The position numbers and the translations under genes were made by a program. A model generated the notes under the pieces. That model did not search any database and was not told where the DNA came from. It was given only the letters and a program-made list of their open reading frames with translations. DNA of 64,000 bases, from the NCBI GenBank assembly GCA_002685255.1, contig NYWU01000030.1:62001-126000 (forward strand). The letters are read 5' to 3'. The stretch is from Idiomarinaceae bacterium. Lineage in GTDB: Bacteria > Pseudomonadota > Gammaproteobacteria > Enterobacterales > Alteromonadaceae. How positions within the stretch are numbered: position 1 is the stretch's first letter; the number at the start of each line of letters is the position of its first letter. This document shows, piece by piece, positions 948-17,184 of the stretch.

Positions 948-2609
948 TTATTGCTCAAGTGCACGATATTTCTCGCGTAAGTGATTACGCACACCGATAG
1001 CCGTAAGGTTGAGCCCTACTATCACAGTAATCAGTAAAAACGATGTGGCATAAACCAATGGCCGCGAAGCCTCTACGTTTGGACTCTGAAAGCCGACATC
1101 ATAAATATGGAATCCTAAATGCATAAACTTGCGATCAAGGTGGAAGTAAGGAAAGTTACCATCAACCGGAAGCATTGGTGCAGATTTAACCACGCCCACC
1201 AACATCAACGGCGCCACTTCGCCTGCCGCCCGTGCCACAGCAAGAATAAGGCCGGTCATTATTGCCGGAGACGCCATTGGCACGATAATTCGCCAGATGG
1301 TTTCCCACTTGGTGGCGCCTAGCGCAAGCGAACCTTCACGCAAGGTACTTGGAATACGGGCAAGCCCTTCCTCCGTTGATACAATCACCACTGGCAAGGT
1401 TAAGATCGCTAAGGTAATCGCAGACCACAGCACGCCTGGTGTACCAAAAGTTGGATTCGGTAATGCCTCAGGATAAAACACCTGGTCAATGCTTCCCCCC
1501 ACCATATAGACGAAAAAGCCGAGACCAAATACCCCATAAACGATTGAAGGCACGCCGGCGAGGTTAATCACGGCAATCCGAATCAGCTTGGTCACCGGAT
1601 TTTTGCCTGCGTACTCGTGTAAGTAAATCGCCGCAACCACACCAAAAGGTGTGACAATGACCGACATCAACAACACCATGAAAACCGTGCCAAAGATGGC
1701 TGGAAAAACACCGCCTTCAGTATTCGCCTCGCGGGGTGGTTCAGAGACAAACTTGCCAATCTGTTGGAAGAAGTGGCCGATCTTTGCAAGTAAATGCATA
1801 TCGTTCGGGAAGTTAACATCCAACACACGGTACAACGGGATAGCGACCTCTTCTCCTCGAAAGTCCTCGACAATAAGCGTATCGCGCGAGGCTTTATCGC
1901 GTATCGCAAACAGCTGCTTTTCTAGCTGTTGATAATCGGCTTGTAGCCGTTCTCGCTCCGCATCAAGTTCTGCCAGCGCCTGTTCAGTTAATTGACCTTC
2001 TAATTTTAAGCGACGCTCCTCGAGACCTAACTCACTCAGCAGGTAGTTAATACGACCGATCTCATCTTCTTGCAGATCCAGACCTTGCTCATGCAGTTCG
2101 ACAGCGCGCTCAACACGTTCAAATAAGACGTCGCGAAAATCACGCTCTTGGTGATTAGCAATTCGCTCACCCTGTTGTTCAATGGCGACGATACGACCAT
2201 AAAAGTTGCCGTCTTTTGTACGTTCGATTATCGCCATATCGGTTGGTGTTTGATCGTCAATGATGGTTGGCTCAACGACCCAAGTAAAATCCAACGGCAC
2301 GTATTCACGGTTACCGATTTTCATCAAGTAACGTGTAATTAATTCACCTTCGCTTGCATCGACCTCAACACCCGATTGACGAACACGGTCAATAGGCACT
2401 TCCTCGCTATCGTAGACTTCGCCAATTAACGTACGTGTCTCGCCCGTTGTCGTTTCGATGGTCATTTGATGAATCGCTGTCGGCCAGAAAAATGATAATC
2501 CGCGCCAGCCAATCATTAACACTAAGCCTATGACCGCCACCAAGCTCACGCTTACCGCGCCAGCCGTCAACCAAATCCAAGGCTTTCCAGTTCTAAACCA
2601 TTGCTTCAT
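948..2609 (-). CDS. pstA: PstA, phosphate ABC permease with large N-terminal extension
   Basis: Inner-membrane permease subunit of the Pst phosphate importer. At 553 residues it is nearly twice E. coli PstA (about 296). The first membrane segment is at about 12-34. It is followed by some 260 residues predicted to be periplasmic, including a charged, leucine-rich coiled-coil stretch at about 170-245. The permease domain (from about 300) has several membrane segments and the cytoplasmic coupling motif around EGSLALGATKWETIWRI. Large PstA proteins like this are known in Vibrio, Shewanella and Pseudomonas relatives. A GAGG precedes the ATG by a usual distance. It follows pstC after 21 bases in the pst operon. 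Confidence 0.93.
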   Translation of the reverse strand: MKQWFRTGKPWIWLTAGAVSVSLVAVIGLVLMIGWRGLSFFWPTAIHQMTIETTTGETRTLIGEVYDSEEVPIDRVRQSGVEVDASEGELITRYLMKIGNREYVPLDFTWVVEPTIIDDQTPTDMAIIERTKDGNFYGRIVAIEQQGERIANHQERDFRDVLFERVERAVELHEQGLDLQEDEIGRINYLLSELGLEERRLKLEGQLTEQALAELDAERERLQADYQQLEKQLFAIRDKASRDTLIVEDFRGEEVAIPLYRVLDVNFPNDMHLLAKIGHFFQQIGKFVSEPPREANTEGGVFPAIFGTVFMVLLMSVIVTPFGVVAAIYLHEYAGKNPVTKLIRIAVINLAGVPSIVYGVFGLGFFVYMVGGSIDQVFYPEALPNPTFGTPGVLWSAITLAILTLPVVIVSTEEGLARIPSTLREGSLALGATKWETIWRIIVPMASPAIMTGLILAVARAAGEVAPLMLVGVVKSAPMLPVDGNFPYFHLDRKFMHLGFHIYDVGFQSPNVEASRPLVYATSFLLITVIVGLNLTAIGVRNHLREKYRALEQ

Positions 2610-2630
2610 GAGTAACCTCTAACTGTCAGC

Positions 2631-4904
2631 CTACATCGAACTGTATTTGTCGCGTAACCGCTGACGGACAAATTCGGCGATGGTGTTAAAGAAGAACGTG
2701 AAGATAAACAACACGAATGCAGCTAAGAACAAGATGCGGTAATGCGAACTCCCCACTTCAGACTCTGGCATCTCCACCGCGATGTTTGCTGATAAGGTGC
2801 GCATACCCTCGAAAATATTCCAATCCATAATCGGTGTATTGCCGGTCGCCATCAGTACAATCATAGTCTCACCGACGGCGCGTCCTAAACCCATCATCAC
2901 CGCCGAGAAGATACCCGGACTAGCTGTCAGTAACACGACTTTTGTCAGGGTCTGCCAAGGTGTGGCACCGAGCGCTAACGAGCCATTGGAAAGATGCTTA
3001 GGGACACTGAATACCGCATCTTCAGCAATAGAGAAAATGGTCGGTATCACGGCAAACCCCATTGCAATCCCGACGACCAATGAGTTCCTCTGATCGAAGG
3101 TGACGCCAAGCTCATTGGTCAAATAGCCACGCACATTACCATCAAATAACTGTGCTTCCACCCACGGACTCATCGAGAACGATAACCAGCCAACGAATAA
3201 TACAAGCGGCACAAGAATGAGCGACGCACGTCCCTCGCCTAACGTAGTGCGGATATGGGACGGCAGTAACTGCCAAAGTGCTGCGAAGCCAATAATCGAC
3301 AACGGCGTTAAGATAATCACCGCAAGCACACCGGGTAAGTAAGCTTCAATGATTGGTGCTAGCCAAAGTCCCGCCAAGAAACCTAGGATAACCGTGGGTA
3401 AGGCTTCCATGATTTCCACGGTCGGCTTAACCACCTTGCGCACTGAAGGCGACATAAAGTAAGCCGTGTAAACCGCCGCCGCCAAGCCAATCGGCACGGC
3501 AAACAACATCGCATAAAGAGCGGCTTTTATTGTACCAAATGAAATAGGTACCAGACTAAACTTAGGCTCGAAGTCATCTGAGCCCGATGTCGACTGCCAG
3601 GTGTAAGAAGGTTCTGGATAACCTTCATACCACACTTGTTGCCACAGCCCACTCCAAGTCACTTCAGGATGCTCGTTATTCAGTTTAAACAACGTCAGCT
3701 CATTCCCCGCTTCGGCTAACAGGTGGTTAGCACGCGGGTCAATAGTGATCATCTGTGTGTCTAGGTTAGGCAGTGCTTCATGATACAGATCGGCCTCTGA
3801 TGTGGTATGAAACACGTTGAGTTTGCCATCATTGGTCACCGCATAAAACGTACGACGGTAGTCTTCGACTTCTAAATCAATAATCGGCCCGCCTGCATCA
3901 AACTGACGAATATACTTAAACGTTCGGCCTTCATCGGTGGGGACTTCAAACCATTGTGAGATAATGCCACTTTCATGCGTGACCAATACGGTCGCGGCCC
4001 CCGGCATCAAGTGTAATGACTGTGCCTGGCCGAACTGCCGTCCGTTAAGCGTGATTACTTGGCTTTCACTGACTGTACCCGACATGCTGACGGCATATAC
4101 CACAATACGGTTATTTATAAGCGCAAACACTTTGTTTAAATCGGGCGTAACCGCGATATCGCGTATAGCAGCGTTCAGTGTACGCTGCTCATATTTAGGT
4201 GTGAGTGATGTCTCACCCGTCAAAAAGTTTTGCTCTGCCGCAAACTTTGTGATTAATAACGTATCAGCGCCAGTGACAGCGGCCATCAACATGCCCTCTC
4301 CATCCGTGGCATAGGCTAACTGTTCCAGTGCACGCCCTTGCTGATCAACTTGCAGAGGTCGCTCGTCATTGAGTGTCTCAAAGCGCGGTACAATGAGTCG
4401 TTCGACTTGACGAGTGCCTTGAGTACGAGCTGTTTCAGGAAAAGTTACTGTGAACTTGGGTTGCACGATAATGGCTTCACCATTATCCAAACCATAGACG
4501 AACTGTTGATTGACCGGTAAGGACCGCGCAAAACTGGTAATTTGCCCCTCTGGCACCAACATACGTTGTTCGATGATGTCGCCCGTATTGCGGTCTGCAA
4601 ACTTATTATCTTGTAAGGCAAACAACTCGCCCTGACCCGATGCGCCAAAGCGATAACCAATTTCGGCCTGTTCTTCCATCCCGAGCGCTAAGGTTTGGTC
4701 GTTGGCTTTGATTTCAAAGCTATGTATCGGCTTAACCGAAGCCGACTCAAAAATGGGTTGTACAACGTAAAGTAGATAGAAAAATATCAACAACAGCGCA
4801 ACAAGTACCAGCACACCACCTGTCGTAACGCCGACACGAGCGAGTCTATCTTTTATTAGGCGCGTTTGGTTCGCTTTAAGCTGCTGTTCTGTCTGACTTT
4901 CCAT
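2631..4904 (-). CDS. pstC: PstC, phosphate ABC permease with large periplasmic domain
   Basis: The partner permease of PstA. It has 757 residues against about 319 in E. coli. After a cytoplasmic tail and one membrane segment (about 31-52) comes a region of about 400 residues rich in short beta-like repeats, resembling a propeller-type sensor fold, probably periplasmic. The conserved permease part begins near residue 450 (FSLVPISFGTIKAALYAML) and holds the coupling motif NGSLALGATPWQTLTK and the EALPTVILGF segment characteristic of PstC. The enlarged form matches the enlarged PstA next to it, so the two extensions may face each other. Only the permease half is assigned with certainty; the propeller reading is an inference from residue pattern. 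Confidence 0.92.
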   Translation of the reverse strand: MESQTEQQLKANQTRLIKDRLARVGVTTGGVLVLVALLLIFFYLLYVVQPIFESASVKPIHSFEIKANDQTLALGMEEQAEIGYRFGASGQGELFALQDNKFADRNTGDIIEQRMLVPEGQITSFARSLPVNQQFVYGLDNGEAIIVQPKFTVTFPETARTQGTRQVERLIVPRFETLNDERPLQVDQQGRALEQLAYATDGEGMLMAAVTGADTLLITKFAAEQNFLTGETSLTPKYEQRTLNAAIRDIAVTPDLNKVFALINNRIVVYAVSMSGTVSESQVITLNGRQFGQAQSLHLMPGAATVLVTHESGIISQWFEVPTDEGRTFKYIRQFDAGGPIIDLEVEDYRRTFYAVTNDGKLNVFHTTSEADLYHEALPNLDTQMITIDPRANHLLAEAGNELTLFKLNNEHPEVTWSGLWQQVWYEGYPEPSYTWQSTSGSDDFEPKFSLVPISFGTIKAALYAMLFAVPIGLAAAVYTAYFMSPSVRKVVKPTVEIMEALPTVILGFLAGLWLAPIIEAYLPGVLAVIILTPLSIIGFAALWQLLPSHIRTTLGEGRASLILVPLVLFVGWLSFSMSPWVEAQLFDGNVRGYLTNELGVTFDQRNSLVVGIAMGFAVIPTIFSIAEDAVFSVPKHLSNGSLALGATPWQTLTKVVLLTASPGIFSAVMMGLGRAVGETMIVLMATGNTPIMDWNIFEGMRTLSANIAVEMPESEVGSSHYRILFLAAFVLFIFTFFFNTIAEFVRQRLRDKYSSM

Positions 4905-4967: not shown

Positions 4968-5951
4968 CTATTCTGCGTTATGTAAGCCCAGCTTCTTTAA
5001 CTCGGCATCAACAACCGCACGTGGCAATGCAATGTAGCCGTCTTTGTCGACAATATCCTGTCCTTGTTGCGACAGAATCATTTTGACGAATTCAGCTTCC
5101 GCTTTACTCAACGGTTGATTTGGATGTTTGTTCAAGTACACATATAGGAAACGCGCCAACGGATATTTACCCGCCAATGCATTTTCACGGGTTGCTGAAA
5201 CAAATTCGTGACTGTCACCGCGTGCAATCGGTACCGCCCGAACACCTGAAGTCACGTAACCGATGCCTGAGTAACCCACGGCATTCAGCGACGTTGAGAC
5301 CGATTGTACAACAGAGGCAGAGCCAGGTTGCTCATTTACATTGGCCTTAAAGTCACCGTCACATAGGCCCGCTTCTTTAAAGTAACCATAAGTACCTGAC
5401 ACCGAATTACGACCGTACAGTTGCAGATCTTTACTCGCCCAATCACCTGTTAAGCCGAGTTGCCCCCAGCGGGTGACTGGCTCTGAAAAGCCACATTTGC
5501 GTGTCGAAGAAAAGATGCCATCCACTTCTGCAATCGACAGCCCTTCAATCGGGTTATCTTTATGAACAAACACCGCGAGCGCATCAATAGCCACGCGAAT
5601 CGGTGTAGGCTTATAACCATGCCGCTGTTCAAATGCTTCTATTTCTTTTGACTTCATCGCGCGGCTCATCGGACCGAAGCTCGCTGTACCTTCGGTCAAT
5701 GCGGGAGGTGCCGTCGAGGAGCCCGCAGCCTGAATTTGGATGTTTACGCTAGGGTACATGCGTTTAAACTCTTCACCCCAGAATGTCATCATGTTGGCTA
5801 AGGTATCAGAACCTACAGAGGATAGATTGCCGGACAAGCCCGACACTTTCTCATATTTAGGTAAATCATCTGTCGCGTGTGCAGGACCTGCCAGAGCGAT
5901 TACCGCACTGACGCCTAAGAGCTGTTTGACTGCCTTGTTGAACCTGTTCAT
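4968..5951 (-). CDS. pstS: PstS, periplasmic phosphate-binding protein
   Basis: A 327-residue PstS-type solute-binding protein that captures phosphate in the periplasm and delivers it to PstC/PstA. The N-terminus is a clear signal peptide (hydrophobic core [12 protein letters not shown], cleavage after AHA near residue 26). Phosphate-contact motifs of the family are visible: [17 protein letters not shown] (near 77-87), GPMSRAM, and a serine-rich [12 protein letters not shown] loop. It has no lipobox, so it is soluble. It is the first gene of pstSCAB-phoU and has a PhoB box 67-85 bases upstream of its start. Confidence 0.95.
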
Positions 5952-6017
5952 GGTATGTGTCCTTATGTGACCTTCACGAAACGAGTTGATCGTATTTTCA
6001 GCAGTTTATGAGATTTG

Positions 6018-6036
6018 TGTGACAGTTTGATGACAA
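6018..6036 (-). promoter_or_regulatory. PhoB box of the pst operon
   Basis: Minus-strand TTGTCATCAAACTGTCACA: two 7-mers TTGTCAT and CTGTCAC spaced 11 bp, against a PhoB box of CTGTCAT-N4-CTGTCAC. A further GTCAT lies 9 bp upstream. A -10-like CATAAA follows about 8 bases downstream. The location just before pstS is the expected one. Confidence 0.85.
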
Positions 6037-6057
6037 TTATGACAAAAAAAAGTCAGT

Positions 6058-7365
6058 TTAGTGACGTTTACCAGTCACTCTGAGTCCCGCCGGCAGCCTA
6101 AACCAAAAGCGCGAACCTTTACCCAGCGCGCTATTAACTTGTAGCTCACAGTTATGATGTTGCAGCGCTTGCTTAACGATAGACAAACCTAAGCCCGTTC
6201 CGCCTCGCTCACTATTTCTATCTTTATCAACACGGTAAAAACGTTCGGTTAAACGAGGTAAATGCTCGGAGCCAATTCCTGGACCGGTATCCTCAACACT
6301 AAACTCAACTTCGCTACCAACCATTTGCCACGTGACGCGAATATCACCACCTTCTTGGTTATATCGAATCGCGTTAGTGATAAGGTTTTGCATAGCGCTT
6401 CGTAGCGCATCCTCTTTACCATAGACCTTAATTGGAGCAACTTCGAAGTGGACATTAATTGATTTTGCTTTTGCTAACTTTTCAGCTTCAGTTTGTAGTT
6501 GCTGCAATAGCACTGGCGCATCGACGACCCGATCAAATACATCATGAGAAGGCGTTTCCATGCGCGACAGCTCTAATAATTGATCGATCAGTAGACGCAT
6601 GCGTTCACTTTGACGCTGCATCTCACCGACCGCTTTAGTCATCATCGCCGGCGGTGTCATTGAGGGATCTTCGACCATTTCTAGGTAACCTTGCAGTACC
6701 GTCAATGGGGTCTTTAACTCGTGTGAAACATTGGCGACAAAATCTTTACGTAAGTTGTCCAACTGCTTTATTTGCGTTACATCACGCGCAACCAATAGGT
6801 ACTGGTCGTCACTGTAAGGCATAACGCGAATTTCGATATCAAGCGAGTCGCGCGCTGGAGAAGGTATCGTAAGTGCTTCCTCAAAGTTACCTTTACTCAG
6901 ATAACTGAAAAACTCAGGATGACGAATTAGGTTTGATAACCTCATGCCGGCATCATCTGGCCATTTTAGCCCAAAATAGAATTGCGCGAGTTGGTTGCTC
7001 CACAATAGTGAGCCATCGCGTCGGAACACGATGGCTGCATCTGGCAACGCTTCGGCCGCCTCACGGAAGCGACGGAGTAACTGAGCTAACGATCGACGCC
7101 TTTGCTGGCTTCGACGTTGATTACGGTAAATGCCATCGTAGATATAAGACCAACTACCAGGTGCCGTCGGTGGCATCATATTGCGGCTATTCCAAAGCCA
7201 ATCGGTCAGCTTTTGTTGGTAGTAATAATGCCAGACCAATAGACCCGCCATGGATAGCGACATCGCCTGCCAAAATATATCGAAAATGGCACCGACAATA
7301 GCAAAAGGCACTAAGTAAAGCACTAACCCCTTAAGTGCGCCGAAGCTACTATATTCCCTATCCAT
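6058..7365 (-). CDS. phoR: PhoR, phosphate-regulon sensor histidine kinase
   Basis: A 435-residue membrane sensor kinase that phosphorylates PhoB when phosphate is scarce, under control of PstSCAB-PhoU. Two close membrane segments (about 10-50) with hardly any periplasmic loop match PhoR, which does not bind phosphate itself. A PAS domain follows (about 100-200). HisKA holds VSHELKTPLTVL with the phospho-acceptor His215. The ATPase has NLITNAIRYN (N box), DTGPGIG (G1) and GGTGLGLSIVK (G2). It begins 10 bases after phoB and ends about 20 bases before the pst PhoB box, so phoBR and pst form one regulatory locus. Confidence 0.95.
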   Translation of the reverse strand: MDREYSSFGALKGLVLYLVPFAIVGAIFDIFWQAMSLSMAGLLVWHYYYQQKLTDWLWNSRNMMPPTAPGSWSYIYDGIYRNQRRSQQRRRSLAQLLRRFREAAEALPDAAIVFRRDGSLLWSNQLAQFYFGLKWPDDAGMRLSNLIRHPEFFSYLSKGNFEEALTIPSPARDSLDIEIRVMPYSDDQYLLVARDVTQIKQLDNLRKDFVANVSHELKTPLTVLQGYLEMVEDPSMTPPAMMTKAVGEMQRQSERMRLLIDQLLELSRMETPSHDVFDRVVDAPVLLQQLQTEAEKLAKAKSINVHFEVAPIKVYGKEDALRSAMQNLITNAIRYNQEGGDIRVTWQMVGSEVEFSVEDTGPGIGSEHLPRLTERFYRVDKDRNSERGGTGLGLSIVKQALQHHNCELQVNSALGKGSRFWFRLPAGLRVTGKRH

Positions 7366-7375
7366 AAACGTCTAG

Positions 7376-8062
7376 TTACCGGCTCGAAAAGCGATAGCCG
7401 ACGCCACGAACCGTCTGAATCAAACGATCGTAACCGTGCTCATGTAATGCTTTACGGAGGCGACGAATGTGGACATCAACCGTACGGTCTTCTACATAGA
7501 CGTTAGTTCCCCAAACTTGGTCAAGTAACTGTTCGCGGCTATAAACACGCTCGGGATGAGTCATGAAAAAGTGCAACAGTTTAAACTCGGTAGGGCCCAT
7601 GTCGATACTACTCTCCTGAGTAGAGATGCGGTGTGATACAGGGTCGAGTTTCAAACCTTCTATCTCGAGCGGCTCATCAAGTACCGTCGGAGCAACGCGA
7701 CGAAAAACTGCGCGCATACGTGCCATGAGTTCTTTCGGAGAAAATGGCTTAGTGATGTAGTCGTCGGCACCGACTTCGAGTCCGCGCACCTTATCTTCTT
7801 CCTCACCGCGTGCTGTTAGCATGATAATCGGAATATTACGGGTGAAATCATCGCTTTTGATTTTCTTAGCGAGTAGAATGCCTGAGCCCCCCGGTAACAT
7901 CCAGTCCAGAAGAACCATGTCTGGATAAGGTTCTGCAATTTTTGCTAGACCACTGTCATAGTCTTTAGCTTCAACGGCTTGGTAGCCGTGTTGCTCCATA
8001 ACAAAACTCAGCATTTCGCGAATTGGTGCTTCATCTTCTACTATGAGAATTCTACGCGGCAT
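7376..8062 (-). CDS. phoB: PhoB, phosphate-regulon response regulator
   Basis: A 228-residue OmpR/PhoB-type response regulator that binds PhoB boxes and activates phosphate-starvation genes. The receiver domain spans about 1-120, with the acidic pocket VEDEAP, phosphoacceptor Asp53 in LLDWMLPG and the conserved lysine in YITKPFSP. The winged-helix DNA-binding domain (about 130-228) ends in [12 protein letters not shown] and VRGVGYRFS. Length and motifs agree with E. coli PhoB (229). It is transcribed with phoR from a promoter region holding a likely PhoB box, which implies autoregulation. Confidence 0.96.
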
Positions 8063-10236: not shown

Positions 10237-11502
10237 CTAATTCATTGCGGTTTCGTTAACGCGCTGTTGGTAATCGACCTGACTCTTTGCGTACCGCTGC
10301 CACTGCTGCGCTGCCGCCTTACTCTCGGGGAATTCAATGGCTTTAGCAAATGAGTCAACAGCGTCCTCATAATGACGCTGGTTAACTGCGGCCATTCCCT
10401 GAAGTAACCATAAGTTACCCTCATTACGCACCTCACCCTTCTCAAGGGCCTTTTTAGCTAACATGGTCGCGCGCTCGTTTTTGTCCAGATTGAGTGCAAC
10501 GTGTGCTGCCTGAGCTAGCATCTCACCATCTTCGCTAACTTCGTCAGCCCATAAATAAGCATCCAGCGCTTGCTGATATTCCCGCGCCTGCATCAAACTT
10601 TGCGCATAGAACTTACGGTTGGCTAAATTCGCTTCCATTTTTTCAGCGTCAAAGCCATCTCGCATAATTTTTGCAGCTTTGTAAGGCAACTGATTAATAT
10701 AATAAACCTGAGCAAGATTACGTAATTCTCCTGCCGTATCGATGAACCCTTGCTGGTTTGCGGCTTCAAGCACTGCCAGTTGCTTTTTACTCTGCTCAAG
10801 TTGGCCATAAACTCCTGCTAGTTGTAGCCAATATTCCGGTTTACTATAGAGTTTTACTAAACGCTCCAGTACCGCTGCCACTTGCTCAGTTTGCTTCAGT
10901 TCATAATGAATAGCGCGAGCGAGTATTAACCAGTTCTCTTGTGGCGCTTTGTCTTCTTGATCAGCTGCCGTAATTGCTTTCTGAATAAATGGCAATGCTT
11001 CAGCAAACTGTTCAGCTTGGTATAATGCTTGAGCTTTAAGTACCCACGCTTTACTCAACTCGTCCGCCTTAGCGACCTTTTCCCAACGGTCCAAGTAACC
11101 GAGTGTCTCCTCGAAATCGCCTTGGGTCAGACTTAACTGTGCCAGGCTAAACAATGTGTTCTTTTTTAAAGAGACAGGAATCGGCGACTCCTCAACCACC
11201 TTGGCAAAGTAATCGATGGCTTTATCCACTTGCTCGTTGTCGTAATAGGTGTAGCCGTAGAAGTTCCAGAGCATCGCACGTTCATAGCTATTCATGCTAT
11301 CTGCACGATCCTCGACCGACTTCAACGCAGCTAAACCGGCTTGCACACCATTATCTTCTGCTTCTTTTTGTGCACGAGCTAACTGGCTATATACTTTCTC
11401 ACGCAATGCCGGTACGCGTTCCGTTGTCTGGGCCAGCACAGGCTGAACGAGCGTTGTACCTACAACCCAAGCAATTACGCCACTTAATAAAAGATGTTTC
11501 AT
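10237..11502 (-). CDS. periplasmic TPR-repeat protein of the TonB operon
   Basis: A 421-residue exported protein: signal peptide about 1-24 (cleavage after VLA), then helical tetratricopeptide repeats almost to the end, for example MLWNFYGYTYYDNEQVDKAI and LWLLQGMAAVNQRHYEDAVD. TPR proteins in this position accompany the TtpC-TonB2-type systems of Vibrio and Alteromonadales; they are thought to scaffold the complex in the periplasm, but the exact role is not known to me. It is the last gene of the DUF3450-ExbB-ExbB-ExbD-TonB-TPR series, 13 bases after tonB. No terminator is visible after it, so transcription may continue into the porin. Confidence 0.85.
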   Translation of the reverse strand: MKHLLLSGVIAWVVGTTLVQPVLAQTTERVPALREKVYSQLARAQKEAEDNGVQAGLAALKSVEDRADSMNSYERAMLWNFYGYTYYDNEQVDKAIDYFAKVVEESPIPVSLKKNTLFSLAQLSLTQGDFEETLGYLDRWEKVAKADELSKAWVLKAQALYQAEQFAEALPFIQKAITAADQEDKAPQENWLILARAIHYELKQTEQVAAVLERLVKLYSKPEYWLQLAGVYGQLEQSKKQLAVLEAANQQGFIDTAGELRNLAQVYYINQLPYKAAKIMRDGFDAEKMEANLANRKFYAQSLMQAREYQQALDAYLWADEVSEDGEMLAQAAHVALNLDKNERATMLAKKALEKGEVRNEGNLWLLQGMAAVNQRHYEDAVDSFAKAIEFPESKAAAQQWQRYAKSQVDYQQRVNETAMN

Positions 11503-11515
11503 TGCTCACCTCACC

Positions 11516-12118
11516 TTAATTCATTTCGAAGGTCATGCGGTTGCGGACCCCTTCTACTTCTACCGGCTCACCGTCGATAACCCGTGGCTTATACTTAAAC
11601 TTCAACACCGCTTCCATGGCTGAGTCCTCAAATATCCCCTGTGGCTCTGCTTCAACAACCACGGGGTTTTTCACCGAGCCCTGTTTGGTCACAGTAAACT
11701 CGACTACCACATAGCCCTCAATTCCTCGTTGCAGCGCACGACGAGGATACGTCGCCTGAACTTTAACGATAGGCAAATACTCGCCATCGCTCGCTTGTAG
11801 AGACGCGCCATTACCAATATCCGCACTGGCGCTGACATCGGCGCTAAAGTCATACGACCCCGAGCTATCCGTATCAACATCCGAACTCATGTCGGGTTGT
11901 GGTAAGTCTTCCGGTGGCTGCTCAGGTTCCGGCGGACGTTCTGGTTTGCGTTCTTTTTCCTGCACCTGTTCAGGTTCAGGTGTGCGCACAAAGTCCAAAA
12001 CACTGCCCTTTACCGGCTCCGACATCGCGCCCTCGCCTGAGCTAATTAACGACTGCATTAAATAGAACAGCCCAATGGTGACTGCGGCGGCAACTAATAG
12101 CGCGGCAATATATCTCAT
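11516..12118 (-). CDS. tonB: TonB-type energy transducer (TonB2-like)
   Basis: A 200-residue protein with one N-terminal membrane anchor (about 4-24), a Pro/Glu/Lys-rich stretch (about 47-75, for example PERPPEPEQPPEDLP) that spans the periplasm, and a C-terminal TonB domain (about 110-200). The domain has the usual YPRRALQRGIEGYVVVEFTV strand-helix core and ends KPRVIDGEPVEVEGVRNRMTFEMN-like. It carries the proton-motive signal from ExbB/ExbD to outer-membrane receptors. Short TonB proteins with this layout are the TonB2 type. It sits 2 bases after exbD. Confidence 0.93.
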   Translation of the reverse strand: MRYIAALLVAAAVTIGLFYLMQSLISSGEGAMSEPVKGSVLDFVRTPEPEQVQEKERKPERPPEPEQPPEDLPQPDMSSDVDTDSSGSYDFSADVSASADIGNGASLQASDGEYLPIVKVQATYPRRALQRGIEGYVVVEFTVTKQGSVKNPVVVEAEPQGIFEDSAMEAVLKFKYKPRVIDGEPVEVEGVRNRMTFEMN

Positions 12119-12120
12119 AG

Positions 12121-12528
12121 TTACTGCTCATCCGTTGCTACTGAAACATCAAACACGCCGGCAGCACGTGCCGCATCCATGACCTCAATTAAGGTCTTAG
12201 TATTTGATTCCTCATCCGCTTGAATAACGACGGATCCTTGCGGATTTTCGGCATAAAGACGTTCGATATTCGCTTGAACCGCACGTAAATCAATCTGACG
12301 CTTATTAATCCAAACTTCATTCGAGTCACTGATTGCCACCAAAATATTGGCGCGATTCTTCTGCACAGCAGTCGCTGCGTCTGGACGGTTAACATCAATA
12401 CCCGACTCTTTCACGAATGAGGCTGTCACGATGAAGAAGATCAACATGATAAAAACGACGTCGAGCATCGGCGTCATGTCGATAGCGCTCTCTTCTTCTT
12501 CAACTAAGTTGGCAAAATGCTGTTTCAT
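12121..12528 (-). CDS. exbD: ExbD/TolR-type proton channel subunit
   Basis: A 135-residue biopolymer-transport protein with one membrane segment. The conserved motif AIDMTPMLDVVFIMLIFFIV carries the proton-path aspartate (Asp23). The periplasmic domain (about 45-135) has the ExbD fold, ending in helix AARAAGVFDVSVATDEQ. It forms the energising channel with the ExbB protein encoded 1 base upstream. Confidence 0.94.
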   Translation of the reverse strand: MKQHFANLVEEEESAIDMTPMLDVVFIMLIFFIVTASFVKESGIDVNRPDAATAVQKNRANILVAISDSNEVWINKRQIDLRAVQANIERLYAENPQGSVVIQADEESNTKTLIEVMDAARAAGVFDVSVATDEQ

Positions 12529-12529
12529 A

Positions 12530-13060
12530 TCAGTGACGCTCCAATAAAATTCGATCTTCTAGTTTCATTCGCTCGCGGCGTGTCGTCCGTTGCAACCAAG
12601 TTGCGGCGAATACTCCAGATAGTGCTCCGACCATACCGGCCATCGTTGGGATTGTGGCTTTAGAAACACCCGATGCCATTGAGCGAGCACTTCCTGTACC
12701 TGTGATAGCCATCACGTCAAACACTTCGATCATGCCGGTCACGGTACCCATTAATCCAAGCAAAGGACACAAAGCGACTAATGCCTTTATCACTGGCAGG
12801 TTGCCGCCTAGCCCCAGCGCAACACGAGAAATCATCGCCTGACGAATTTGTTCAGCATTCCACGACGATTTATCGTCACGCTCTTTCCAGCGTTTGCGCG
12901 CATCTTTGACCGCTTTACGGTGGCCATTGAAAAAGTAGAAAATTCGCTCGAGTATCATCAGCCACATGCTGAAGATTAGGATTCCGATGACCAGCAGGAC
13001 ATGCCCGCCGGCCTCGATGAAATCTCTAATCGCATTGCTGAATTCAATCAGAAATAACAC
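12530..13060 (-). CDS. exbB: ExbB/TolQ/MotA-type channel protein (short)
   Basis: A 176-residue ExbB2-type protein with three membrane segments. The N-terminus FSNAIRDFIEAGGHVLLVIG is a typical short periplasmic helix. The conserved C-terminal part contains LCPLLGLMGTVTGMIEVFDV and MASGVSKATIPTMAGMVGAL, the two pore helices of the family. The start codon is GTG. It is one of two ExbB-like proteins in this operon; this compact one is the true ExbB partner of ExbD. Confidence 0.92.
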   Translation of the reverse strand: MLFLIEFSNAIRDFIEAGGHVLLVIGILIFSMWLMILERIFYFFNGHRKAVKDARKRWKERDDKSSWNAEQIRQAMISRVALGLGGNLPVIKALVALCPLLGLMGTVTGMIEVFDVMAITGTGSARSMASGVSKATIPTMAGMVGALSGVFAATWLQRTTRRERMKLEDRILLERH

Positions 13061-13062
13061 GA

Positions 13063-14439
13063 CTATTCTCCTCGCTCAGAGCGTTCAGCAATAATGCCTG
13101 ATGCTTGCTCCTGCAAAATGTGGATCATGTTTTTACTGCGTGTATGTAACATTGCGAATAGCAACGTCATCGGAATCGCGACAACAAGACCGAGTACTGT
13201 AGTCACCAATGCTTGCGAGATACCACCCGCCATCATTTTCGGGTCACCCGTACCAAACAAGGTAATTGCTTGGAAGGTATTAATCATACCGGTTACTGTA
13301 CCCAATAGACCCATCAACGGAGCGACAACCGAGATGATCTTGATAAACGTGAGGTTGCGGGTAATCTTCGGTACTTCGCGTAAGATGCCCTCACTCAGTT
13401 TGAGCTCAAGTGTTTCAGTATCCGCATCCGGGAACTTGTCTTTGATCAGCATGACACGACCCAGTGGGTTGTCTTCTTTTGGCTGCGGTGCTTTAAGTTG
13501 GCGTTTTACTTTGTTGCCAATAAGCATAAGTGATACGAAACGCTCAAGTGCAATCAACAAGCCGATTAAGCCGAGTCCCAGAATGATGTAGCCCACAGTT
13601 CCACCTTGGTCGACACGCTCTTTTAAGCTTGGCGCCTGCACCAACAATCCAAGAATCGAGCCGCCCGTTGGATCCAAGCCAAACGCGACCACGCCATTTG
13701 AGGCGTCTTGCAACTCATCAGCACTCTCGGTAAAGCGACCTGCCGGCTGACGGACTAATTCAGCGATGTTTCCGGTGGTTGCGTTATATTCAAGGTATGC
13801 GCCATCTGAAACAAGGTTGAACGCCCCTACACGCAAGACGTCTTCGACATCTTTCTCACCATCAGCTTCAGTCACAGGCGCTGAGAATTCCGCAATTTTG
13901 CCTGACTCGGTCATTTCTTTTTGTAGCGCCAGCCACACTTTCTCAATATCTTCGATCGAGGCGAGCTTAGAGGAGTTACTGATTTGCTCAGAAAGTTGCT
14001 TTAGCTCGTCAGAACGGCCAGGGTACTGCGCTGAAATAACGGAGTTTTGGAAGCTGCCAGCAGCATCATTAGTCACCTGCTGTAATACACCAAAGAGCTC
14101 TTTCAATGAGCCCATGCTTTGCGTCAAGGTATCTTGCAAGTTACCTAATTTAGTCTCATTGCTTTCAAAGCGTGTCTCTAAGTCTGACGCTTGTTGCTCA
14201 AGCGCTTGACGCTGTGCGATGGCATCACGCAACATTTGCTTTTGCTCTTGCTCCTGCTGACGGAAACGCTCTAAGCGAGCTTTGTTTTCTTCCGACTGTG
14301 CGTACTTACCTTGCTGAAGCTGCTCAAGCAACTGGTCAAGGTTGATTGGATCTTGCGGTTTAGGTGCCGCTTGCGCGCCAGCTACCAAACCTAAAGTTAG
14401 TGCTGCGCTGATTAATAGCTTGATTGGTTTCATCGACAT
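13063..14439 (-). CDS. TtpC-like long ExbB/MotA-family protein with periplasmic coiled coil
   Basis: 458 residues. A signal-like N-terminal segment (about 5-25) precedes a long coiled coil (about 45-150, Gln/Glu-rich), a mixed domain, a membrane segment near 280-300 and a C-terminal MotA/TolQ/ExbB domain with VAPLMGLLGTVTGMINTFQA and GGISQALVTTVLGLVVAIP. This is the layout of TtpC, the extra component that Vibrio TonB2 systems need for iron-siderophore uptake. It probably extends the ExbB channel into the periplasm. The start ATG has GGAG seven bases upstream. It begins 11 bases after the DUF3450 gene. Confidence 0.88.
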   Translation of the reverse strand: MSMKPIKLLISAALTLGLVAGAQAAPKPQDPINLDQLLEQLQQGKYAQSEENKARLERFRQQEQEQKQMLRDAIAQRQALEQQASDLETRFESNETKLGNLQDTLTQSMGSLKELFGVLQQVTNDAAGSFQNSVISAQYPGRSDELKQLSEQISNSSKLASIEDIEKVWLALQKEMTESGKIAEFSAPVTEADGEKDVEDVLRVGAFNLVSDGAYLEYNATTGNIAELVRQPAGRFTESADELQDASNGVVAFGLDPTGGSILGLLVQAPSLKERVDQGGTVGYIILGLGLIGLLIALERFVSLMLIGNKVKRQLKAPQPKEDNPLGRVMLIKDKFPDADTETLELKLSEGILREVPKITRNLTFIKIISVVAPLMGLLGTVTGMINTFQAITLFGTGDPKMMAGGISQALVTTVLGLVVAIPMTLLFAMLHTRSKNMIHILQEQASGIIAERSERGE

Positions 14440-14450
14440 CTTAGGACTCC

Positions 14451-15236
14451 TTAATCGGCAGCGTTAGTTGACGCAGTTTTATTCACGACGAGCGGTAGCA
14501 TCAACATATCTGGAGCGACCTGCTTACGTGCGATACGGATGGCAGTTTCAACAGCAGGGCGATGAGCCTGGTCAAGCTCCATCCACTGTTTGCTGTCGTT
14601 ATCCCAAATACCGAGGTGCTGCCCATCGCGTGACTTATAAATCAACGCCACACGACCTACGCGTAAGAACGTTACATCTTGCACTTGCCCATCGACAGAG
14701 TGCTCTGCCGTATAAGCCTCAATGTTACGACCGTAATCGGTCTCAATTTGATAAGCTTCCATAACGCGACGGAATTTCTCAGACACATCAACGTTGGCTT
14801 TGCCCATCAACTCACGCAAACCCGCGATGCGTTCATCTCGTTCTTGCTCTAAAAACGGTACATCGAGTTCGATAAAGTTATCGAGTGCATCAACCATACG
14901 AATCATCAAAGGAGTGATTTGGCGCTCAACGTAGCTCACTTGGTCAATCGATTGATTCAAGTCAGCCATCTCAACCTGTTGGTCGTTGATCTGGTTTTGA
15001 AGTTGGTTGGTGTAAACTTGCAGACCTTCAATTTCTTTCATGATCTGCTTGTACTGCTGCATGCGCTCTTGCATGGAGTCAGAGATTTTGTCTACAGTGA
15101 GCTGAGCCTCGCGTGCAGACTCATTGATATCGGAGGCGTTCTCAACGACTGGTTCTAAGGTTTTATCCTGTGCCAATGCCGATGTTGATAGAACGCAAGC
15201 CATCGCAATGGCTGTACTTGTCGCTAGCAACTTCAT
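14451..15236 (-). CDS. DUF3450 exported coiled-coil protein
   Basis: 261 residues: a signal peptide (about 1-22, cleavage after ALA), a heptad-rich coiled coil (about 40-115, including YTNQLQNQINDQQVEMADLN), then a compact C-terminal domain ending in PLVVNKTASTNAAD. It matches DUF3450, which almost always heads TonB operons with two ExbB-like proteins in marine gammaproteobacteria. The biochemical role is unknown to me; together with the coiled coil of the next protein it may form a periplasmic rod. It is the first gene of the operon and lies about 75 bases behind four PhoB-like repeats. Confidence 0.85.
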   Translation of the reverse strand: MKLLATSTAIAMACVLSTSALAQDKTLEPVVENASDINESAREAQLTVDKISDSMQERMQQYKQIMKEIEGLQVYTNQLQNQINDQQVEMADLNQSIDQVSYVERQITPLMIRMVDALDNFIELDVPFLEQERDERIAGLRELMGKANVDVSEKFRRVMEAYQIETDYGRNIEAYTAEHSVDGQVQDVTFLRVGRVALIYKSRDGQHLGIWDNDSKQWMELDQAHRPAVETAIRIARKQVAPDMLMLPLVVNKTASTNAAD

Positions 15237-15309
15237 ATGTGACCCTTTACTTAGGTTGGTGAATTTTTAAACACCCAGATGAAAGATGCGACAACTTTAG
15301 TGATTTTTC

Positions 15310-15349
15310 GTGACAGCTTAATGACGTAAATATGTCAACTTTGTGACAA
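15310..15349 (-). promoter_or_regulatory. tandem PhoB boxes before the TonB operon
   Basis: On the minus strand four 7-mers follow each other at exact 11-bp steps: TTGTCAC, TTGACAT, ACGTCAT and CTGTCAC. This is two adjoining PhoB boxes on one helical face, the arrangement used where two PhoB dimers bind side by side. They end about 74 bases before the DUF3450 start. A -10 is less clear (possibly ACTAAA, around 15297-15302). Confidence 0.75.
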
Positions 15350-15435: not shown

Positions 15436-17184
15436 ATGGCTTACAAAAGCATATCTTATTCGCTTCTCACCCGCGTTCTGTCTGTCTATTTTTTACTAAC
15501 GCTTACAGTCACAGCGGTACAAATTGGTGCAGAATATTTTGACACTAAACGTGTGTTAGTCGCCGAACTGCAAAACCAACAAAGTACCTTTAATGGTTCA
15601 CTGACGCGTTCCTTGTGGGAGTTCAATACCCCCCAAATTGAGACCATCGCTGACGGTCTAATCAGCATTCCGGCAATTGCGGGTGTGTTAATAAGAGACG
15701 AAAGTGGTAAGCCTGTTATTCAAATTGGTGAAACCTTACCCGTGGATAATTTACCTGAACGCGCTTCCGAAGGTTATGTCGTTCCCGAGGAAAACGGCAC
15801 CTTTGGTTTCTACAATGCGCTGATTTTTGAGTTTTCTGGCCACTCAACTCGGGTGGGCGATGTATCACTCTTTACCACCCGCGATATTGCCATCGACCGC
15901 ATCAAGATCAGCCTCGCATTTATTGTCGGTAATGCGATTATAAAAAGTGCGTTCTTACTTATCCTTTTTACCATCGCGTTCCAACGCATGCTTAACCAAC
16001 CCTTAAACGATCTCACTCGACAAATTAATAGTTTTCGGTTGGATAATTTAGACGCGTCACGCATCAAACTCGATGAACGACATCACAATGAGTTGGTACT
16101 GATTGAGCAAGCATACAATCAACTCATCGATAACATTGAAGACTATCAAGAAGATCTAGAGCGGACACAGCATAAACTTAAGTTAGCCAACCGCCAATTA
16201 GATGAACAAAATGCTATCCTCGAACAGGAAGTTGCTCGGAAAACCTCGCGTTTAAGTCAGGTGATGCTTGACCTCGAGCAGCGCAAAAATGAATTGGAAA
16301 TTCGGCAAGAAAAACTGGAACGAGAAATCAGTCAACGCCGTGCGATGGAAACTAATTTGCGCGAATCGAACGATCGGCTTCAGTCGTCACTCGATCATCT
16401 TAAAAATACTCAACAACAACTTATTGAATCCGAGAAAATGGCTTCTTTAGGTGGTCTTGTCGCGGGTATTACACACGACGTAAACACACCCATCGGTATT
16501 AGCGTAACGGCTAACTCGTTTTTAAAAGAGAAACTCGAAAACCTTGATCGCATGCTAAACGACAAAACATTAACGCAAGCACAACTGGGCAAATATATAG
16601 AAGAAAGTCGTGAAAGCATTCAACTACTTGAGAATAACCTTAATAGAGCATCAGAGCTTATCAGTAGCTTTAAGCAAGTGGCAGTTGATCAAACATCAGA
16701 TGCTATTCGCGACATTGATTTAAAACGTTACGTAGGCGATCTGGTTCAGTCATTGCAACCGCAACTCAAAAAACAAAATCACCATGTGCGCATTGATTGT
16801 CCTGACGACTTATATGTTCGCTGTACAGCCGGTGCGTTGTCGCAAATTTTTACTAACCTGATTATGAATTCCATACTGCACGGATTCGAGGGCATCAGTG
16901 AAGGTGAAATGCATATTGAAATCCGTACTGAAACCGATGCTAATCAGACCGACAGACTCCATGTGGTATACTCCGATAACGGTCACGGTATGAATGAAGA
17001 GCAGCTAGAGAAACTGTTCGACCCATTCTTCACAACCAAGCTAAACCAAGGCGGTAGTGGCTTAGGCACGCATATCGTTCGCAACCTAGTCACACAAACA
17101 TTGGACGGCGAAATCACCGCTTCTAGTGAGCCGGGTCAAGGTTTAACGTATCGGTTCTCCTTCCCAATCATTATCTTAAGATAA
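15436..17184 (+). CDS. membrane sensor histidine kinase with long coiled coil
   Basis: 582 residues. One membrane segment (about 9-31), a periplasmic sensor domain (about 35-155), a second membrane segment (about 158-183), then a HAMP-like region and a long coiled coil (about 215-335). HisKA holds LVAGITHDVNTPIGIS with His347 as likely phosphoacceptor. The ATPase has NLIMNSILHGF, DNGHGMN and GSGLGTHIV. The LxxGITHxxNTPIG form is typical of kinases resembling the GAF/7TMR class in Vibrio and Shewanella. No response regulator is adjacent, so the partner is unknown. It starts divergently from the PhoB-controlled TonB operon and 12 bases before rdgC, which may share its transcript. Confidence 0.85.
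   Translation: MAYKSISYSLLTRVLSVYFLLTLTVTAVQIGAEYFDTKRVLVAELQNQQSTFNGSLTRSLWEFNTPQIETIADGLISIPAIAGVLIRDESGKPVIQIGETLPVDNLPERASEGYVVPEENGTFGFYNALIFEFSGHSTRVGDVSLFTTRDIAIDRIKISLAFIVGNAIIKSAFLLILFTIAFQRMLNQPLNDLTRQINSFRLDNLDASRIKLDERHHNELVLIEQAYNQLIDNIEDYQEDLERTQHKLKLANRQLDEQNAILEQEVARKTSRLSQVMLDLEQRKNELEIRQEKLEREISQRRAMETNLRESNDRLQSSLDHLKNTQQQLIESEKMASLGGLVAGITHDVNTPIGISVTANSFLKEKLENLDRMLNDKTLTQAQLGKYIEESRESIQLLENNLNRASELISSFKQVAVDQTSDAIRDIDLKRYVGDLVQSLQPQLKKQNHHVRIDCPDDLYVRCTAGALSQIFTNLIMNSILHGFEGISEGEMHIEIRTETDANQTDRLHVVYSDNGHGMNEEQLEKLFDPFFTTKLNQGGSGLGTHIVRNLVTQTLDGEITASSEPGQGLTYRFSFPIIILR

Follow-up and report, generated by a model that had tools for sequence, protein, structure and literature searches.

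A six-gene TonB2-type operon of an Idiomarinaceae bacterium stands behind an array of four in-phase PhoB half-sites that is kept in most orthologous operons of its family, and the operon probably encodes a Ton motor of the Pho regulon driving a lipoprotein–receptor pair that imports a phosphorus compound. The operon, headed by a DUF3450 gene, lies in a stretch of 64,000 nucleotides (GenBank assembly GCA_002685255.1, contig NYWU01000030.1, positions 62,001 to 126,000), referred to here as the window. Direct control of the operon by PhoB is very likely because of the conservation of the array, its controls, the offset of the –10 site and the conservation footprint, taken together. The partnership between motor and pair is moderately supported by gene order and co-occurrence. 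At nanomolar levels, the crossing of the outer membrane by phosphorus is usually ascribed to porins, and TonB motors are seldom credited with an energy-driven uptake of phosphorus compounds.

The array occupies positions 15310–15349 on the minus strand and forms two adjoining Pho boxes at 11-bp steps. Read from 15349 down to 15310, the half-sites are TTGTCAC, TTGACAT, ACGTCAT and CTGTCAC, separated by AAAG, ATTT and TAAG. Scored against four YTGTCAY copies spaced at 11-bp steps, the array has 3 mismatches in 28 positions and is the top-scoring array of the window when both strands are scanned; the second best (5 mismatches) is the pstS promoter (6008–6047, minus strand), which provides a reference site from the same genome. 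The preliminary description had singled out these four repeats as hard to obtain by chance, and a chance origin can now be ruled out: none of 300 dinucleotide shuffles of the window yielded an array with five or fewer mismatches, and at 14 other step lengths (7–21 bp) the best four-copy array of the real window had at least 7. The half-sites are unequal (0, 1, 2 and 0 mismatches in order), which leaves the first 18-bp box stronger than the second. Exactly 10 nt 3′ of the last half-site there is a –10-like hexamer, TAAAGT (15294–15299, minus strand), which places the box in the –35 position; the ATG of the DUF3450 gene follows 73 bp after the end of the last half-site and 57 bp after the hexamer. 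In E. coli, the pho box is described as taking the place of the –35 region, near the –10 element (PMC4971064).

The genes behind the array all lie on the minus strand, in the leftward order read earlier from the translations, and this order is borne out by Pfam matches for DUF3450, MotA_ExbB (twice), ExbD, TonB_C and TPR. The first gene is ttpB-like (14451–15236; 261 amino acids; DUF3450, PF11932, 3.3e-85), followed by a ttpC-like gene (13063–14439; 458 amino acids) with a C-terminal MotA_ExbB domain (PF01618, 6.8e-30), an exbB-like gene with a GTG start (12530–13060; 176 amino acids; PF01618, 6.1e-21), an exbD-like gene (12121–12528; 135 amino acids; PF02472, 2.7e-31), a tonB-like gene (11516–12118; 200 amino acids; PF03544, 2.7e-20) and a gene for a TPR protein (10237–11502; 421 amino acids; TPR models) that is ttpD-like by position and repeats. 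TtpB, TtpC, ExbB, ExbD, TonB and a TPR-type TtpD thus stand in one leftward row, as in TonB2-type systems. In its N-terminal half, the TtpC-like protein has a weak DUF3450 match (PF11932, 3.1e-7; 30.4 bits against a curated cut-off of 32.6), and with this match below the cut-off the protein looks as though it were a DUF3450–ExbB fusion.

Conservation was followed in two sets of loci. All 98 genomes searched from the window's family have DUF3450 matches, which divide into the operon's group and a more distant paralog present in most of these genomes. For the orthologs, the top 73 ttpB matches were taken, with a single match per genome, a lower limit of 204 bits and the window's own excluded; a second copy in one genome (G094, 203 bits) was assigned to a third group, and one locus with 40% identity and no box, from a genome without the lipoprotein (L199), was retained and counted as a miss. 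All six genes are present at similar spacing in 72 of the 73, the remaining locus (L189) lying on a contig of 5855 bases. The second set consists of 80 named loci, one of which (L256) was dropped from the box count for its short upstream stretch. To count as a box, a site had to lie on the coding strand within 400 bp and to comprise either two half-sites with no more than 2 mismatches or three with no more than 4. Neighbouring genes were sought within ~4 kb on the upstream and ~16 kb on the downstream side of the family loci, and within as much as 9 kb either way of the named loci. Paralogs (20), third-type copies (7), further DUF3450 loci (19) and lipoprotein loci outside the family (20) were picked by hand from the listings.

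The repeats pointed out in the window recur in the relatives, with a box before 56 of 73 orthologous operons and at 55 of 79 named loci, and under the same rule before none of 20 paralogous DUF3450 operons and none of seven third-type copies; one paralog clears a looser threshold. Of the 42 genera, 35 include one or more genomes with the box, and in 29 every genome sampled has it. Dinucleotide shuffling of the same ortholog fronts gave 1.55 boxes per 73, steps other than 11 bp gave 2–8 of 73, and the fronts of other genes at these loci (400 bp before open reading frames of 150–440 amino acids, with ttpB, phoBR and pst genes excluded) had a box in 14 of 604 cases. In the 72 orthologs where the last half-site could be placed, a –10-like hexamer lies exactly 10 nt past it in 41, and at any other offset in at most 5. 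Across 14 Idiomarinaceae sequences, conservation is 0.84 in the half-sites, 0.83 in the –10 site, 0.77 in the spacers and 0.54 in the rest of the 200 bp.

The box is not a general trait of DUF3450 operons, which is ruled out by the paralogs, the third-type copies and 17 tested DUF3450 loci from other groups; these 17 have neither the box nor the receptor–lipoprotein pair described below. Nor is linkage to phoBR and pst sufficient as an explanation, since loci with no PhoB or PstS in reach still have the box in 53 of 69 cases in the family set and in 31 of 54 in the named set. An order-level search of 247 genomes found two from another family (f7, one genus) that score like members of the operon's group; both have the pair and one has the box. 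Among the named loci, Pleionea sediminis and a Kangiellaceae metagenome-assembled genome (MAG) have both box and pair, and a Pseudomonadales MAG has neither. Control of the paralog by Fur is unsupported by a simple scan with a Fur-box consensus, which found no excess in either orthologs or paralogs.

The candidate partner of the motor emerges from the relatives. In 28 of the 73, the gene directly 5′ of the operon on the same strand encodes a member of a receptor family of ~890 amino acids, mostly preceded by a gene for a lipoprotein with beta-helix features. Within ~9 kb of the operon, a TonB-dependent receptor is encoded in 52 of 80 named loci, with the lipoprotein also near in 50 of those 52; the lipoprotein is found in 53, PstS in 24 and PhoB in 18 of the 80. 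The receptor lies downstream in 17 named loci, all Pseudoalteromonas by title. In the family set, where 4 kb upstream were counted, the receptor is present in 35 and the lipoprotein in 30 of 73. Genes for PstS, lipoprotein, receptor and TtpB stand in a row at 16 of 80 named loci; nine of them, seven in Alteromonas and two in Glaciecola, have phoB at the head of the row with all genes co-directional, and a phoR-like frame lies in between in both mapped examples (L251 and L264). On the A. macleodii plasmid pBGP9 (NZ_OX359244.1, 15166–29091; L345), the row runs phoB, phoR, phosphate-binding protein, 2OG-Fe(II) oxygenase gene, lipoprotein, receptor, DUF3450 and two ExbB-type genes; because it is carried on a plasmid, the module may move between strains.

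In the window genome, the pair lies ~61 kb from the operon and consists of a TonB-dependent receptor (contig C25:5266–7932) and an adjoining lipobox-bearing, beta-helix lipoprotein (C25:8024–10780), with a perfect Pho box before the lipoprotein gene (C25:10845–10862). Of the 30 best family loci, 28 (this perfect one included) have a Pho box before the lipoprotein gene, and so do 22 of the 31 named loci with the start in reach. Across 98 genomes, operon and lipoprotein occur together in 72, the operon alone in 2, the lipoprotein alone in 7 and neither in 17 (Fisher 1.1e-11, uncorrected for relatedness). The earlier suggestion that this Ton system is dedicated to phosphorus is thus strengthened by a neighbouring pair that often has a Pho box of its own and that lies between pstS and the operon in the Alteromonas and Glaciecola loci. 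The claim that the operon stands beside pst-phoBR and a porin holds for the window, and both the porin and the linkage to phoBR are found in only part of the group. A porin is not favoured as the outer-membrane partner: a porin match occurs in 7 of 73 family loci, and no array precedes the porin of the window.

Three observations concern the surroundings of the pair and of ttpB. In two Pseudidiomarina loci (L245 and L249), a membrane protein of ~424 amino acids, mechanosensitive-channel-like by eye, is encoded between receptor and operon at about –1400 to –110 from ttpB. A small protein, sulfotransferase-like by eye and from a family of 5, is encoded upstream of ttpB in L153, L290 and L296. 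In L361 (G102, another family of the order), the lipoprotein–receptor pair has a TonB match ~2 kb before it and no TtpB match; perhaps another Ton motor is tied to the pair there.

The pair resembles ElpS (CC0170) and CC0171 of Caulobacter crescentus in layout and through homology within the wider family. ElpS is an extracellular lipoprotein encoded beside a TonB-dependent receptor gene, as in the pair described here; it is reported to be made under phosphate starvation and released, with a suggested stimulating effect on alkaline phosphatase (PMC2996285). ElpS/CC0171 is linked to type II secretion genes, with no Ton motor mentioned in the parts of the account consulted, and cc0171 is expressed in rich and poor medium alike (PMC2996285). 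Plasmids of other Pseudomonadota and of Bacteroidota also encode homologs of the lipoprotein. Of 20 lipoprotein loci from outside the window's family, 19 have a receptor close by, six have gsp genes (GspD and GspE at five, GspE alone at one) and none has a TtpB match. A search of PDB sequences with the lipoprotein gave no match. An AlphaFold model was made for a single-domain homolog (L264) in place of the Idiomarina protein (mean predicted local distance difference test score 84); its fold was of no use as a clue to the ligand, as it resembles only generic beta-helices.

In the mechanism that these data suggest, PhoR would phosphorylate PhoB when phosphate is low, and PhoB dimers seated on the in-phase repeats would stand in for the –35 element and bring RNA polymerase to the –10 site that lies 10 nt further on. 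The six-gene energiser TtpB–TtpC–ExbB–ExbD–TonB–TtpD would then be made as a member of the Pho regulon and would power the co-induced receptor (C25:5266–7932) with its ElpS-type beta-helix surface lipoprotein (C25:8024–10780). Receptor and lipoprotein could carry a scarce phosphorus compound (phosphate itself or one of its esters) across the outer membrane, to be taken over in the periplasm by PstS or by phosphatases. PhoB binding, the response to phosphate, the physical contact of motor and pair and the transport itself are predictions of this mechanism.

Several results weigh against this mechanism. At the set threshold, 17 of the 73 orthologs lack the box, as do 24 of the 79 named loci (16 of these 24 being Pseudoalteromonas); the box is commoner beside PhoB or PstS (24 of 25 named loci) than elsewhere (31 of 54), and it is also scored on the opposite strand of 11 of 73 ortholog fronts; in Idiomarinaceae, the spacers are almost as conserved as the half-sites. 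As for the partnership, the pair is not adjacent to the operon in Idiomarina itself, no receptor is in reach at 28 of 80 named loci, seven genomes have the lipoprotein without the operon, and the lipoprotein front has no box in 9 of 31 named loci. The model of the L264 homolog found no match in the PDB below E 0.001. The data would also be compatible with service of the receptor by the TonB encoded on contig C14 of the same genome.

Among the alternatives, the one that survives best is that the operon encodes a PhoB-controlled, general second Ton motor that adds energiser capacity for the several TonB-dependent receptors a cell would make under phosphate limitation and has no dedicated partner. 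Beside its 30 receptor plug matches, the window genome has just two strong TonB genes, each of them near a DUF3450 gene (a third TonB match is below the cut-off), and Pho-box-like repeats stand before 4 of the 30 receptor genes, as such a motor would lead one to expect. It is nevertheless rather unlikely, given that one specific pair is linked to the operon and co-occurs with it, this pair being the one whose linkage was followed in relatives. Alternatively, motor and lipoprotein may, like Caulobacter ElpS in the published proposal, act on the envelope or on the activity of extracellular phosphatases, and not in import. The reported function of ElpS (PMC2996285) speaks for this role, as do homologs in two alphaproteobacteria, Sphingomonas and Indioceanicola (two of five plasmid records examined), in which lipoprotein, receptor and then type II secretion genes follow each other in the layout described for cc0170, cc0171 and the gsp genes (PMC2996285). 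Conversely, the recurring neighbours in the window's relatives are the receptor, the Ton motor and, upstream in 16 of 80 named loci, PstS, which argues for import and makes the envelope role improbable. That the array is the site of another OmpR-family regulator, or a relic free of PhoB control, is hardly credible: the evidence comes from sequence and half-site three is weak, but the array shares consensus and step with the genome's perfect sites (those preceding pstS, ppk and phoD) and is kept in most genera, also where neither PhoB nor PstS is in reach. Import by a Pho-regulon motor together with the lipoprotein–receptor pair therefore stays the favoured reading.

The components of the Pho response are encoded in the window itself. 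Leftwards past the operon lie the porin, a transporter, phoB (7376–8062), phoR (6058–7365) and then pstSCAB, with pstS at 4968–5951; phoB, phoR and pstS are on the minus strand, and PhoB, PhoR, PstS, PstC, PstA and PstB all score above their NCBIfam cut-offs. PstC (757 amino acids) and PstA (553 amino acids) are long (window 948–4904), and their best permease-model stretches are confined to the C-terminal part. On the other side, a sensor histidine kinase gene (15436–17184, plus strand) with a CHASE5-like region below the cut-off is divergent from the operon and shares its intergenic region; a divergent histidine kinase also stands beside the operon in L107–L110. The genome comprises 2.77 Mb in 46 contigs, and its TtpB is 98% identical to that of Idiomarina sp. 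MD25a, the closest named genome.

Genome-wide, there are four perfect two-repeat sites, which precede the lipoprotein gene, pstS, ppk-ppx and the gene for a PhoD phosphatase. A scan for two half-sites with at most 2 mismatches found 226 sites as against 184 for the reversed pattern; as this looser scan is mostly noise, weight is put mainly on the four perfect sites. The ppk-ppx genes behind their perfect box lie at L103:5762–9415 (G000 C8), and at L102:3549–7711 (G000 C17) a receptor gene with a three-repeat box (4 mismatches) is convergent with the PhoD-type phosphatase gene and its perfect box. Two pairs of Oar-like receptors of ~1050 amino acids (L097:3505–9993, G000 C3; L098:94–6497, G000 C20) have Pho-box-like repeats 62–103 bp upstream in three of four cases, the upstream sequence of the fourth being too short; the three Oar-like receptors scanned have CarboxypepD_reg and OMP_b-brl_4 domains, and a gene for an Exo_endo_phos protein is divergent from the C3 pair.

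The preliminary description considered TonB-driven uptake of phosphorus compounds, by a system apparently dedicated to phosphate starvation, a plausible undescribed arrangement; the word 'undescribed' is too strong because exbB2-exbD2-tonB4 of P. aeruginosa has already been reported. This putative, uncharacterised TonB system likewise belongs to a phosphate-starvation regulon, that of PhoB and the sigma factor VreI, and the promoter that drives its transcription is bound by PhoB (PMC7035377, PMC4971064). It differs from the operon described here in requiring VreI (PMC7035377, PMC4971064); in the gene listing consulted, DUF3450, TtpC-type and TPR genes are absent, as is a lipoprotein–receptor pair, and the neighbours comprise genes of unknown function and a two-partner secretion pair. 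In Caulobacter, TonB-dependent receptors under PhoB control are thought to import phosphate-containing compounds (PMC11208175). In the parts consulted, that account concerns receptors only, and ExbB has no occurrence in the text of PMC11208175.

In layout, the operon resembles TonB2 and TonB3 of Vibrio vulnificus, which have the same six gene types, TtpB, TtpC, ExbB, ExbD, TonB and TtpD (PMC6957404). The TonB3 operon is headed by a receptor gene, like many relatives of the window's operon (PMC6957404). TonB2 differs in being iron-induced and carrying siderophores, whereas TonB3 moves no known iron compound and is reported to be switched on by serum or by glycerol minimal medium that is low in casamino acids; a title cited in the same paper places TonB3 under Lrp and CRP (PMC6957404). 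No PhoB control of either system is described in the parts of PMC6957404 consulted. Among the open-licence papers that literature searches listed, none reports a PhoB-controlled DUF3450/TtpC operon in its title or displayed abstract. Phosphate-starvation control of a Ton system (P. aeruginosa) and PhoB-controlled receptors (Caulobacter) are already known; as far as these searches show, the new elements are a lineage-wide, PhoB-controlled TtpB–TtpC-type motor and its tie to an ElpS-type lipoprotein and receptor.

The marine genera concerned include Alteromonas, Colwellia, Idiomarina and, less clearly, Pseudoalteromonas. For the fullest form of the proposal, the balance is about even: a lineage-wide Ton machine dedicated to phosphate, in which a PhoB-controlled motor and a lipoprotein-capped receptor would pump phosphate or phosphate esters and hand them over to PstS, so that passage through the outer membrane at ocean-level concentrations would be energised and not left to porin diffusion alone. 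If true, it would give a role to the little-understood DUF3450/TtpC-type Ton system and to ElpS-type lipoproteins, and active uptake of phosphorus across the outer membrane would become directly testable by simple gene removals.

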